Source: Rhizobacter sp. AJA081-3 (lineage in GTDB: Bacteria; Pseudomonadota; Gammaproteobacteria; Burkholderiales; Burkholderiaceae_C). Taken from it: DNA of 64,000 bases. The DNA lies in the NCBI RefSeq assembly GCF_017795745.1, contig NZ_CP059067.1, positions 682,001 through 746,000 on the forward strand, in the 5' to 3' direction. A model generated the notes under the pieces. It had not been told where the DNA came from and made no database searches. It saw only the letters and a program-made list of their open reading frames with translations. Each line of letters opens with the position of its first letter. Position 1 is the first letter of the stretch. This document shows positions 36,191 to 39,629 of this stretch, one piece after another. A program made the position numbers and the translations under genes.

Positions 36191-37393
36191 ATGAACGACG
36201 ACCCCCACGACTGGCACGCCGACACCCGCGTGCTGCACGGCGACAGTGGCCTGTCCGACGACACGTCGGTGGTCGCGCCGATCCACTACAGCGCCACCTT
36301 CCGCGCCCGCGATGCCGGTGAGTTCGCCGACATGGCCACGCGTGCGCGCCACCCGGCCTACTACACGCGCTACGGCAACCCGGTGCACGAACGGGTGGCG
36401 GCGATCATCGCCGGCCTCGAGGGCACCGAGACCGCATTGCTCACCGCCTCTGGCATGGGCGCGATCAGCACCACCGTGCTGGCGCTCGTCTCGGCCGGCG
36501 ATCACGTGGTGGCGCAGACGCGCCACTACATGAGCACGGCCAAGCTGTTCGACGAGGTGCTGCCGCGTTTCGGCGTGCAGGCGACGCTGGTCGAGCAGAG
36601 CGACGTCGAGGCCCTGCGCGCCGCGATCCGACCGAACACGAAGCTGATCATGCTGGAGACGCCGGCCAACCCGACGCTGGTGCTGACCGACCTGCAGGCG
36701 GTGGCGGCGATGGCACGCGAGCGCGGCATCCTCACCATCGTCGACAACACCTTCGCCTCGCCGCTGAACCAGCAGCCTCATGCGCTGGGCATCGACATCG
36801 TGGTGCACAGCGCCACCAAGCTGCTCGGCGGCCACCACGACATCACCGCCGGCGCGGTGTGCTGCTCGAACGCATTGGCCGAGAAGATCTGGCGCATGCA
36901 CATCACGCTGGGCGCCGTGCTCTCGCCGATGGATGCCTGGCTGCTGCTGCGCGGGCTGCGCACGCTGGCCGTGCGCATCGAGCGCATCAACGCCAGTGCG
37001 CTGGCGCTGGCGCGCTGGCTGGAGCAGCAGCCGCAGGTCGAGCGCGTGCACTACCCCGGCCTGGAAAGCCACCCGCAGCACGCGCTCGCCCAGCGCCAGA
37101 TGAAGGGCGGCGGGCCGGTGATCGCCTTCGCGGTGAGGGGTGGCTTCGAGGCGACCAGCCGCTTCGTCGGTGCGCTCCACCTCGCCACGCATGCAGTGAG
37201 CCTGGGCGGTGTGGAGTCGCTGATCGTGCACACCGCGGCGATGTGGTCGGGCACCATGAACGAAGCACAGATGAAGGCCGCGGGCATCCCGCCGAACTTC
37301 GTGCGCTACTCGGTCGGGCTGGAGCATCCCGATGACCTGAAGAAGGACCTCGCCCGCGCGCTCGCGCAGGCCTTGCCGGAGCACACACGATGA
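36191..37393 (+). CDS. Cys/Met-metabolism PLP-dependent enzyme (cystathionine gamma-lyase/synthase-like)
   Basis: A 400-residue PLP enzyme of the trans-sulfuration family. The cofactor lysine is K210 in HSATKLLGGHHD; other signatures are YYTRYGNPVHERV, LTASGMGAISTT, LETPANPTL and IVDNTFASP. It could act as cystathionine gamma-synthase, gamma-lyase, methionine gamma-lyase or O-succinylhomoserine sulfhydrylase; sequence alone does not decide. The start at MNDDPHDW gives the family length. It overlaps the downstream SDR gene by 4 bases, so the two are made together. Confidence 0.85.
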   Translation: MNDDPHDWHADTRVLHGDSGLSDDTSVVAPIHYSATFRARDAGEFADMATRARHPAYYTRYGNPVHERVAAIIAGLEGTETALLTASGMGAISTTVLALVSAGDHVVAQTRHYMSTAKLFDEVLPRFGVQATLVEQSDVEALRAAIRPNTKLIMLETPANPTLVLTDLQAVAAMARERGILTIVDNTFASPLNQQPHALGIDIVVHSATKLLGGHHDITAGAVCCSNALAEKIWRMHITLGAVLSPMDAWLLLRGLRTLAVRIERINASALALARWLEQQPQVERVHYPGLESHPQHALAQRQMKGGGPVIAFAVRGGFEATSRFVGALHLATHAVSLGGVESLIVHTAAMWSGTMNEAQMKAAGIPPNFVRYSVGLEHPDDLKKDLARALAQALPEHTR

Positions 37394-38079
37394 ACACGAA
37401 GGACCCCGTGGTGATCGTCACCGGCGCCGCCGGCGCGCTGGGCCGCGCCGTCGTGCAGCGCTTCCAGGCCGACGGCGCGCGGCTGGCGCTGTTCGACCGT
37501 GACGCGGCGGTGCTGAAGCAGATGTTCCCGGGTGCCGCGTTTGCCGAGGCGGTCGATATCGCCGACGAGGCCGCCGTGGCCGCTGCCGTCGGCCGCATCG
37601 TGCAAGCGCTCGGCCGCATCGACACGCTGGTGCACGTGGCTGGTGGCTTCGAGATGGGGGAGGGCGTGGCGCAGATGACGCGCGCCTCGTGGGAGCGCAT
37701 GTTCGGCCTGAACGCCTGGTCTTTCGTCGCGCTGGCCAAGCCGGTGGTGGCGCAGATGCGCGTGCAGGGCAGCGGCAGCATCGTCGCTGTGACCGCGGCG
37801 GCGGCCGGCGGAGGGCAGGCGCTCAAGGGCGCCTACATCGCCTCGAAGAGCGCGCTGCAGCGCCTGGTCGAATCGCTTGCCGCCGAACTGGCCGGCAGCG
37901 GCATCCGCGTCAACAGCGTGGCGCCGACCACGCTGGACACGCCGGCCAACCGCGCCGCGATGCCCGATGCCGATCGGTCGGCCTGGGTGAGCACCGCGGC
38001 GGCGGCCGACGCCATTGCCTTCCTCGCCACGCGCGGTGGCGAGGCGGTGCAGGGCCAGCACTTGCGGCTGGGTGCTTGA
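37390..38079 (+). CDS. Short-chain dehydrogenase/reductase (catalytic Ser position altered)
   Basis: A 229-residue SDR with the dinucleotide motif TGAAGALG at 11-18, the NAG-type loop present as HVAGG, and the catalytic Tyr149/Lys153 (AYIASKSAL). The position 13 residues before the Tyr, normally Ser, is Ala136 with Thr135 beside it, so activity may be altered or Thr may substitute. It is coupled to the PLP-enzyme gene by an ATGA overlap, suggesting a shared pathway. Substrate unknown. After its stop comes the longest non-coding stretch of the window. Confidence 0.85.
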   Translation: MNTKDPVVIVTGAAGALGRAVVQRFQADGARLALFDRDAAVLKQMFPGAAFAEAVDIADEAAVAAAVGRIVQALGRIDTLVHVAGGFEMGEGVAQMTRASWERMFGLNAWSFVALAKPVVAQMRVQGSGSIVAVTAAAAGGGQALKGAYIASKSALQRLVESLAAELAGSGIRVNSVAPTTLDTPANRAAMPDADRSAWVSTAAAADAIAFLATRGGEAVQGQHLRLGA

Positions 38080-38141
38080 CACGGGTGCGGAGTCAAAGTC
38101 CCAGGAGCGGATCTTTCCGAAGCAACCGCTTGCGGCCCGTT

Positions 38142-38165
38142 GCAGACATTCACGAAGGTCCGCAA
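38142..38165 (+). repeat. Left copy of imperfect direct repeat
   Basis: GCAGACATTCACGAAGGTCC followed by GCAA. The right copy at 38549-38569 reads GCAGAC, CCACGAAGG, CCGCAA, differing by a 2-base gap, a T/C change and one missing T. The two copies lie outside the inverted repeat on either side and in the same orientation. Confidence 0.5.
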
Positions 38166-38200
38166 TGATGGGCGCGCGGGCAGGCGGTCCGGGTATGCGC

Positions 38201-38304
38201 TCTCCGGCCCACGCTCGCGGGCGACCACCGAGACTCGCCTCGCATGCCTCCTCAACACCAACTTCGTCCTGCCACCGCCTGGGCGACCGCGAATGGGGCC
38301 TGCG
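38201..38304 (+). repeat. Left arm (104 bases) of large inverted repeat
   Basis: The outer 32 bases (38201-38232, starting TCTCCGGCCCACGC) are perfectly complementary to 38471-38502. The inner 24 bases (38281-38304, starting GGGCGACCGCGAATGG) are perfectly complementary to 38399-38422. The 48 bases between are the same length in both arms but only about 60 percent identical by my count. Confidence 0.9.
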
Positions 38305-38398
38305 ATCGCACACCCGAACCACCTGCCCCACAAGCACTGAGGCCCTCATGACGGCAGGCCACCGCTGATGCCGGCAGGGCGGCGGTGGTGCCCGCGGG

Positions 38399-38502
38399 CG
38401 CAGGCCCCATTCGCGGTCGCCCTGGCGAGGGCATGGCACACCCGGTGTTGATGAGGAAGCCGCCGCGTCCCTCGGTGGTCGCCCGCGAGCGTGGGCCGGA
38501 GA
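38399..38502 (-). repeat. Right arm (104 bases) of large inverted repeat
   Basis: Reverse-complement partner of 38201-38304, separated from it by a 94-base spacer (38305-38398). Conserved blocks of 24 and 32 bases flank a diverged 48-base middle. A transcript across the region could fold into a long imperfect hairpin. Confidence 0.9.
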
Positions 38503-38548
38503 ACGCGGGTGCCGCCGTCGCCCTGCGACCATGCCCGTCGCACGCAAA

Positions 38549-38569
38549 GCAGACCCACGAAGGCCGCAA
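38549..38569 (+). repeat. Right copy of imperfect direct repeat
   Basis: GCAGAC-CCACGAAGG-CCGCAA, matching 38142-38165 as described there. It lies 46 bases after the right arm of the inverted repeat. Confidence 0.5.
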
Positions 38570-38633
38570 AGGGCCGAGAACTGCCGGTCAATCGCCCAAC
38601 TTGCTGATCCATCGAATGCGAAAGAGCAGAGGC

Positions 38634-39629
38634 TCAGGTCGCGCCCGGTGCTTCAGGGTAGAGCCCGTGCACGCTGCCGAACAGCCGGGTCAGGCCGAGC
38701 AGCGCGTCGATGTTCGGAGTTGCGATGCTCAGCCGGGTGGCGAGCTCGTGCACCACGCCGACGATGGCGTCGAGCTCGATGGCGCGGCCGGCCTGCACGT
38801 CCTGCAGCATCGAGGTACGGAATGCGCCGAGCTTGCGGGTGATGGCGTGGCGGTCTTCCGGGCTCTGCGCGATCGCGCAGCCCAGTCGCTCGCCGATGGC
38901 CGAGGCCTCGCGCATTGCCGCCGAGCAGAAGGCCCGCACCAGCGGATCATCGAGCACGCGATCGCTGGTGGCGCCGGTGATCGCACTCACCGGGTTGATC
39001 GTCATGTTGCCCCACAACTTGTACCAGATGTCCTGGCGGATGTTGGCCGACGCCGTGGCGTCGAAGCCTGCATTCACGAGCAAGGCGACGATGCGTTGCA
39101 CCCGTTCGCTGAGGCCACCCAGCGGTTCGCCGACGATCAGCCCCTGGCCCATGCGATGCTCGACCAGGCCGGGCTCCGAAGTCGCGGTGCTGGCATGCAC
39201 CACGCAGCCGAGCACGCGCTCGAAGGGGATGGCGAGGCCGATCACGCCACCCGGGTCGACGCTCTGCAGCGGCGAGTCGCCGAGCGCCGCCACGCCCCGC
39301 CCGAACCACCAGGGCACGCCGTTCATTGCCGGCAGCACGACAGTTTCCCGACCGATCAGCGGCGCCAGGCGCGGCGCCAGCTCGGGCAGGGCCTGGCCCT
39401 TGAGTGCGACGACGACGAGGTCCTGCAAGCCCAGTACGGCCGGGTCGTCGCTCGCCGAGGCCGGTGCCTGAAGCAGCTCGCCACCCTGGCGCAGCCGCCA
39501 GCCCTGCGTGCGCAGCGCCTGCAGCGTGGCCCCGCGTGCCAGGGCGCTGACCTGCGATCCGCCGGCGCGCGCCAGCCGCGTGCCGATGAAGCCGCCGATC
39601 GCGCCGGCGCCGACGATGCAGACCTTCAT
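38634..39629 (-). CDS. 2-dehydropantoate 2-reductase family protein
   Basis: A 331-residue enzyme with N-terminal NADP-binding GAGAIGGFIG (residues 7-16), the conserved Lys in IRQDIWYKLWGNMTINP and a Glu in AIELDAIVG, all features of ketopantoate reductase. It is somewhat longer than PanE and its neighbour is a tartrate/malate-type dehydrogenase rather than pantothenate genes, so it may reduce another 2-keto acid. The start overlaps the upstream dehydrogenase by 4 bases on the - strand. The non-coding repeat region follows its stop. Confidence 0.85.
   Translation of the reverse strand: MKVCIVGAGAIGGFIGTRLARAGGSQVSALARGATLQALRTQGWRLRQGGELLQAPASASDDPAVLGLQDLVVVALKGQALPELAPRLAPLIGRETVVLPAMNGVPWWFGRGVAALGDSPLQSVDPGGVIGLAIPFERVLGCVVHASTATSEPGLVEHRMGQGLIVGEPLGGLSERVQRIVALLVNAGFDATASANIRQDIWYKLWGNMTINPVSAITGATSDRVLDDPLVRAFCSAAMREASAIGERLGCAIAQSPEDRHAITRKLGAFRTSMLQDVQAGRAIELDAIVGVVHELATRLSIATPNIDALLGLTRLFGSVHGLYPEAPGAT

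Follow-up and report, generated by a model that had tools for sequence, protein, structure and literature searches.

A mirrored double-hairpin element of Rhizobacter and related Burkholderiales, apparently a small mobile repeat of a kind not yet described

The hairpins of HUH elements lie on one strand, and the attC sites of integrons have R boxes, of consensus RYYYAAC / GTTRRRY, at the hairpin base. REP and REPIN units are, in the available part of PMC3733652, 20-40 nt in length and marked by a GTAG- or CGTC-type tag. MITEs such as Correia and ERIC are gene-less and hairpin-forming, with intergenic copies which differ between strains (PMC10969869, in its accessible portion). MRSC-65-2, as outlined in excerpts of PMC11109978, consists of one long stem bearing a UYCCGG repeat, occurs in diverse phyla and is sometimes found near a transposase.

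The element considered here lies in a stretch of 64,000 nucleotides from Rhizobacter sp. AJA081-3 (NZ_CP059067.1, positions 682,001 to 746,000), referred to below as the window. Like REP, BIME and REPIN sequences it is built of inverted palindromic modules, is intergenic, carries no gene and occurs in many copies. The features given above for Correia and ERIC apply to it too, and it resembles integron attC sites in forming hairpins between genes. With MRSC-65-2 and the other mobile or repeat sequence candidates of PMC11109978, so far as the excerpts describe them, it shares multiple intergenic copies, a covarying stem and a possible relevance as DNA. It seems to be a small mobile repeat of a kind for which no description exists so far.

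The repeat in the window and its copies

The earlier note had described a large inverted repeat with two perfect blocks in each arm around a diverged middle, a geometry that recomputation found to be right to the base. The arms cover 38201-38304 and 38399-38502, with 104 bases each. Their outer 32 bases, block A (38201-38232, +) and block A' (38471-38502, +), are perfect reverse complements, as are the inner 24 bases, block B (38281-38304, +) and block B' (38399-38422, +); the 48 bases between the blocks match at 29 of 48 positions (60%). Among exact inverted matches in the 64-kb window, the 32-base block ranks first in length and the 24-base block second, followed by one of 21. With three mismatches allowed, the two block patterns match only the repeat itself in the window, and each gave 0 matches in 100 dinucleotide shuffles. 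RNA folding of 38190-38515 gave z of -11.6 on the plus and -15.1 on the minus strand, and complementarity runs past the 104-base arms both outward and inward.

The whole element, of about 446 bp, extends over approximately 38132-38577 and has the ends GCGGCCC...GGGCCG(A/C). This extent was set by aligning the full copies with their flanks (14 from the Rhizobacter sp. AJA081-3 genome and five from its sister genome, G002), so that the ends derive from the copy alignment rather than from a clean empty site. Between the GCGGCCC and GGGCCG motifs, 14 of these 19 copies measure 445-447 bp; the window copy was measured automatically at 436, with the right end placed one motif early, and the end at 38577 was read by eye. 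The element sits between convergent genes, a short-chain dehydrogenase gene on the plus strand which ends 5' of it (37390-38079; Pfam adh_short, 6e-39) and a PanE/ApbA-type ketopantoate reductase gene on the minus strand (38634-39629; ApbA_C, 3e-30; ApbA, 2e-21). In agreement with the earlier remark that no transposase is near, Pfam revealed no transposase gene inside the element or in these two flanking genes.

Searching the genome and its relatives for the blocks, as had been proposed, yielded copies, so it is not the case that the blocks occur nowhere else; the suggestion of a dispersed repeat is borne out by further copies in this and other genomes. BLAST with the core sequence or the whole element found 14 full copies of 85-100% identity in the Rhizobacter sp. 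AJA081-3 genome (5.40 Mb, one contig), together with eight incomplete ones, six partial and two short remnants. G002 has five full copies as well as partial ones.

Comparison of homologous loci, also suggested at the outset, found the window site empty in three relatives, G002, G006 and G007, in which only 23, 8 and 8 bp separate the matches to the flanking genes; the other same-genus genomes are uninformative at this site, the flanks lying apart in G001, G003 and G005 and only one being present in G004. Two G002 copies, in turn, have matching sites in the Rhizobacter sp. AJA081-3 genome which are empty. Copies thus come and go. Not all of them are recent, since four sites are common to the two genomes (11 G002 loci compared with 21 of the other genome), and gain and loss are not separable at every site.

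The four shared sites differ in state. A full copy is present in both genomes at one (L002/L032), the copy is shortened in Rhizobacter sp. AJA081-3 at another (L016/L055), in G002 at a third (L004, C1:4700759-4701222; L078, G002 C5:117501-117756) and in both at the last (L076/L080). At L004 and L078 the element lies in opposite orientation relative to the flanks in the two species. The G002 copy at L078 has an internal deletion at TCGCGG, which is common to blocks A and B', and the same kind of TCGCGG-type junction was seen by eye at L075 in Rhizobacter sp. AJA081-3. A 1.7-kb stretch at L076/L080 is 98.5% identical between the genomes, the other shared sites showing approximately 86-95%; in sequence terms this suggests recent exchange.

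No target-site duplication beyond chance was found in 17 of the 19 full copies at any of the lengths tried (3, 4, 5, 6, 8 and 9), no count exceeding the permuted maximum with which it was compared. Insertion into pre-existing palindromes was considered and rejected, as the two flanks of one copy are not more complementary to each other than flanks taken from different copies (24 copies, p 0.70). At L061, L062 and L069 in G008, the end of block A' is partially repeated beyond the element's outer end, where a GAGCCGGACGCCGACACCTGGCGCGAGGT-like stretch is also present.

These observations bear on the possibility that the element is a MITE with ordinary terminal inverted repeats as its ends, mobilised in double-stranded form by a DDE transposase. 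Terminal GCGGCCC/GGGCCGC motifs, a high copy number and empty sites would all fit, and presence or absence at orthologous sites, as seen at the window site and at the two G002 sites, is a mark of MITEs and mobile repeats. Despite this, such an origin is unlikely: target-site duplication is absent, the most conserved parts begin about 70 bp inside the ends, and the strand-asymmetric wobble described below is not expected under double-strand recognition. No autonomous partner was seen at the loci examined.

Fold, covariation and strand of the hairpins

Each arm is predicted to form its own hairpin of approximately 140 nt (RNAalifold, 52 arms). In the window the left hairpin occupies 38181-38320, its structure borne by the minus strand, and the right hairpin, its mirror image, occupies 38383-38524 with the structure on the plus strand. 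The covariance model R2, for which both are training rows, scores them at 125.2 and 113.2 bits respectively, the left hairpin reaching only 36.3 bits on the plus strand (38186-38325). The central spacer between them, 38321-38382 in the window, differs in length among copies elsewhere. Block A, which is near-invariant across genera, pairs with block B in the consensus structure to give the upper stem, and the sequences just outside block A and just past block B make up the lower stem. The loop of about 70 nt contains a TCAACACC-like motif, the best-conserved stretch of the diverged middle. It is present as TCAACACC at 38252-38259 (+) in the left arm and mirrored as GGTGTTGA at 38444-38451 (+) in the right.

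The covariation analysis used alignments A1/A2, with 52 of 54 arms from 32 chosen loci, two L183 arms being left out. Both-side changes were found at all 11 pairs of the lower stem. Over the whole structure 143 cells had changed on both sides, compared with 52.6 in shuffles (143 being reached in 0 of 500) and 22-42 in slid-alignment controls, so that covariation exceeds the alignment controls in the manner of a structured nucleic acid. The 13 pairs of the upper stem hardly vary, five never changing and one having a both-side change; support for this stem therefore comes from conservation, not covariation. In 51 arms outside the alignment the lower stem is 83.4% paired as against 63.2% when shuffled (maximum of 500, 67.4%). 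Opposite-strand matches, training loci and the ten loci L252-L261 were left out of this set, in which at least one genome (G497) also supplied training rows.

The middles of the left and right arms are as alike across elements (identity 0.669) as within one (0.675; 19 copies, p 0.18). Pairing of the left with the right arm in one long-range hairpin was thus rejected, as the middles do not co-vary. One long inverted repeat with a drifting middle, the form first given to the repeat, is accordingly an incomplete description: the loops do drift, but the unit is two mirrored hairpins, since the middles do not co-vary while each arm has a covarying lower stem. A coding role was also dropped, as the A-B offsets, which range over 79-82, do not differ in steps of three and leave no shared frame.

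Wobble pairs in the lower stem distinguish the strands. Read on the A-to-B strand, the 52 arms have 51 A.C and 7 G.U cells, which corresponds mostly to G.U on the reverse strand; by locus the asymmetry is 25 to 2 with five ties. It was not built in, because both the alignment and the folding of A1 used the A-to-B strand. On the reverse strand of the 51 arms outside the alignment there are 65 G.U and 7 A.C cells (22 loci versus 2), a count in which the model strand could lean slightly towards G.U. The upper stem is uninformative on strand, its 53 G.U and 4 A.C cells on the A-to-B strand including G.U cells nearly all from one conserved pair, present in 51 of 52 arms. According to R2, the structured strand of either hairpin points away from the centre, being minus on the left and plus on the right. 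Since wobble in the lower stem is G.U on one strand, the structure seems to be borne by one single strand that reads away from the centre. In all 19 of the 19 related copies, the minus strand has the greater stability.

Distribution, pairing and genomic context

Among the genomes of 84,980 species, block A followed by a gap of 48-78 and block B was found in 73 stretches. All their record titles name beta- or unspecified proteobacteria, including Hydrogenophaga, Rhodoferax, Ideonella, Rubrivivax, Piscinibacter, Pseudorhodoferax, Comamonas, Comamonadaceae and Burkholderiales; the rest are beta- or proteobacterial MAGs without closer resolution. In length the 83 matches are 96 (38), 95 (28), 94 (11) or 97 (6) bp, where 79-109 was allowed. 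A fuzzy search of the fetched loci, allowing 74-90, gave 108 arms with A-B offsets of 79 (12), 80 (37), 81 (52) and 82 (7). The A-B architecture is kept in other genera, where the loop sequences are unrelated except for the TCAACACC-like motif. The blocks are strongly constrained at fixed spacing, which upholds the earlier idea of selection on the ends. Because loci L120-L192 were gathered with the exact block pattern, part of the invariance they display at the pattern positions comes from this selection; the Rhizobacter sp. AJA081-3 copies, obtained by whole-element BLAST, and the 51 additional arms, obtained by model search, are free of this selection.

R2 matched at least 27 of 200 family genomes (at least 22 of 141 genera) in a scan whose stricter filters lost weak matches. 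In 274 genomes of the class it made two matches only, both in the family of Rhizobacter sp. AJA081-3, and a similar exact block pattern matched Rhizobacter sp. AJA081-3 alone among 399 genomes of the order. Viral contigs gave 0 matches to the block pattern, and no match was made in plasmids and phages at the sensitivity used. In three Hydrogenophaga records (L133, L137 and L163) the element is at the same place upstream of a transporter gene, called LysE-like on visual inspection of the beginning of the frame; one arm has diverged there, yet is found by R2 at 45-62 bits.

Near-invariant blocks at fixed spacing are also what a domesticated chromosomal site for a nucleoid or supercoiling protein might display, with the A and B blocks as putative binding sites. 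We regard this as highly improbable, given the patchy occurrence (at least 27 of 200 family genomes), the turnover of sites and the covarying lower stem.

The hairpins are usually paired. Among 150 matches listed in nine genomes, 47 of 48 neighbouring pairs up to 1.3 kb apart face outward (-,+). The centre of the listed pairs in nine other genomes ranges from about 50 to 400 bp, three pairs having centres of about 520, 935 and 980 bp. The sole exception in orientation is an array in G034 (C280, L219) with three hairpins in the same direction, between the first two of which lie HTH and PIN toxin-antitoxin-type genes. Of 20 loci with one strong listed hairpin, hand-chosen from the lists as were the loci for R2 arm scoring, four have a (-,+) partner of 36-42 bits; the rest have a weak partner, of 22-23 bits in two of them, or none.

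Genes lie between the hairpins at a few loci only, and differ each time: a HARE-HTH protein (L209), ParDE (L210), Hypoth_Ymh and a pentapeptide protein (L136), a methyltransferase and DsrE (L168), and an ORF without a Pfam family (L178). Between its hairpins L136 also has a separate attC-like site, and the 3-kb 'centre' in G500 (L238), with an ORF named by eye as sensor histidine kinase-like, is probably two separate elements. Such genes, together with IntI over the cut-off in 8 of 11 chosen genomes, had suggested a cassette system with cargo. This was dropped because IntI is no commoner with the hairpins, resident attC sites are different, L136 has its separate attC-like site and L238 is probably a double element. 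Of the 200 family genomes 90 have IntI, and of the 27 with hairpins 14 have it, so that it does not co-occur with them; the nearest element copies in Rhizobacter sp. AJA081-3 are more than 170 kb from IntI. No attC R boxes were found in the window region or in 19 copies of that genome with flanks, by a scan that misses some attC, finding sites at two of four integrase loci (L237 and L241; not L239 and L240). An attC identity was rejected on the absence of R boxes and of linkage to IntI, and on the difference of resident attC sites. The chromosomal integron of this genome (L237, C1:3092000-3110000; integrase C1:3100321-3101304) has nine similar attC sites of 126-129 bp with GCCTAAC/GTTAGGC-type boxes.

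Alternating inverted palindromic modules at intergenic sites recall REP, BIME or REPIN sequences spread by a RAYT, or Y1 tyrosine transposase, and a REP-like pair was among the first suggestions. In the strict sense this has not survived, as there is no Y1/RAYT match in the Rhizobacter sp. AJA081-3 genome. Y1_Tnp (PF01797), with 0 matches there, is present in two of seven element-bearing genomes (one in G008, five in G034); it has no match in G002 and G024, which like Rhizobacter sp. AJA081-3 have full copies, nor in G006 and G007, which have partial ones. Furthermore, the units are about 140 nt rather than 20-40 nt. A RAYT-driven origin, already disfavoured, is accordingly very unlikely; for REP/REPIN membership, both a cognate RAYT and the 20-40 nt size are lacking. 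By eye, no GTAG- or CGTC-type tag was noticed in the hairpin alignments.

The element has a marked preference for gene ends. In Rhizobacter sp. AJA081-3, 13 of the 20 classified copies (the two short remnants being left out) lie between convergent genes, seven between tandem and none between divergent genes, a convergent excess with p of 1e-6, 1e-7 and 8e-8 against three backgrounds and an absence from divergent sites with p of 0.03-0.07. All loci together, some counted twice, comprise 40 convergent, 46 tandem, 5 divergent and 22 at a contig edge. Gene orientation was taken from a home-made codon-bias caller. Of the 11 tandem cases in Rhizobacter sp. AJA081-3 and G002, 10 have the same end of the element towards the upstream gene (p 0.012), a polarity noticed after the fact with orientation read by eye from alignments.

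Such a bias would be expected of a structured non-coding RNA or mRNA 3'-end element (a stabiliser, processing site or bidirectional terminator), mirrored so that both convergent transcripts carry it. The strand-specific excess of G.U, the conserved sequence of the internal loop, the tandem polarity and the greater stability of the minus strand in all 19 related copies speak for this. A sense-strand mRNA element holds only in Rhizobacter sp. AJA081-3, where all six of the full tandem copies have the sense strand as the more stable one: in tandem cases outside this genome and G002 the more stable strand is sense in four, antisense in eight and tied in one, and the idea was rejected. Tandem hairpins without a strong partner have no sense bias either, four being sense (L242, L247, L250 and L255) and four antisense (L245, L248, L249 and L251). 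No T-run was seen by eye after the window stems, copies vary at orthologous sites, and Rfam yields no match: in the window only a sub-threshold CRISPR-DR29 (E 0.72) outside the element, and at seven loci of other genera none at E up to 0.5. An RNA function of this kind is possible, though rather unlikely.

Proposed nature and comparison with known systems

In the reading we prefer, and consider about equally likely to be right or wrong, the element is a non-autonomous, gene-less mobile repeat of Comamonadaceae-type genomes whose ends are hairpins recognised as single strands. Its conserved ends with a variable centre, many copies, presence or absence at sites and independence of orientation point to a mobile element, and the strand-specific wobble to recognition of a folded single strand. 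That partnerless hairpins face either way relative to tandem genes (4 versus 4) argues for a selfish repeat rather than an mRNA signal. The two hairpins would be the two ends of the element, recognised as single strands by a putative enzyme encoded elsewhere, which may copy the element into intergenic sites. With nothing but the ends required, the centre would be at liberty to change, and the 3'-end bias could mark sites that tolerate insertion or places where the ending of transcription exposes DNA. The original suggestions of a non-autonomous mobile element and of a structured molecule each hold in part.

Several observations count against a mobile repeat. There is no target-site duplication, no transposase in or beside the element and no Y1 match in the Rhizobacter sp. 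AJA081-3 genome; no plasmid, phage or viral contig matched at the sensitivity used; and no autonomous relative was found. Some hairpins are without the strong partner which ends of one element should have. As to single-stranded DNA, the G.U asymmetry fits RNA at least as well, and an RNA role would explain the strand asymmetry and the 3'-end bias equally well. Tentatively, and with the balance of probability against it, the mirrored hairpins may be the paired ends of a new Burkholderiales transposition or retro-copying system using folded single strands or, if transcribed, a new class of mobile structured RNA. Both ends of such a system would be in mirror orientation, in contrast to the one-strand hairpins of HUH elements.

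The element adds a repeat family and a working covariance model to genomes such as those of Hydrogenophaga, Rhodoferax, Ideonella and Piscinibacter, for which the searches turned up no such family. Fixed geometry, an invariant core and strand-specific covariation make single-strand recognition a testable prediction, and the filled and empty sites in related genomes offer a direct route to the enzyme that would move the element. No description of it was found in the open-access literature, and no Burkholderiales names were found in the accessible parts of PMC3733652 and PMC8632094.

Compared with REP, BIME and REPIN sequences, the element is much longer and has a large loop, a fixed A-B geometry and no RAYT match in its own genome. 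It differs from the Correia and ERIC MITEs, as presented in the accessible portion of PMC10969869, in having two strand-specific hairpins and neither a target-site duplication nor a parent IS that could be found, and from integron attC sites in its lack of R boxes, its own genome's integron keeping canonical attC of about 127 bp. Set against MRSC-65-2, a comparison by description only from excerpts of PMC11109978, it differs in its conserved core and in being a mirrored pair, and in the genomes searched it was seen in one family only. It belongs to a known kind, the structured mobile or repeat motifs represented by the MRSC motifs in those excerpts; what is new is the mirrored double hairpin with an invariant core and strand-specific wobble.
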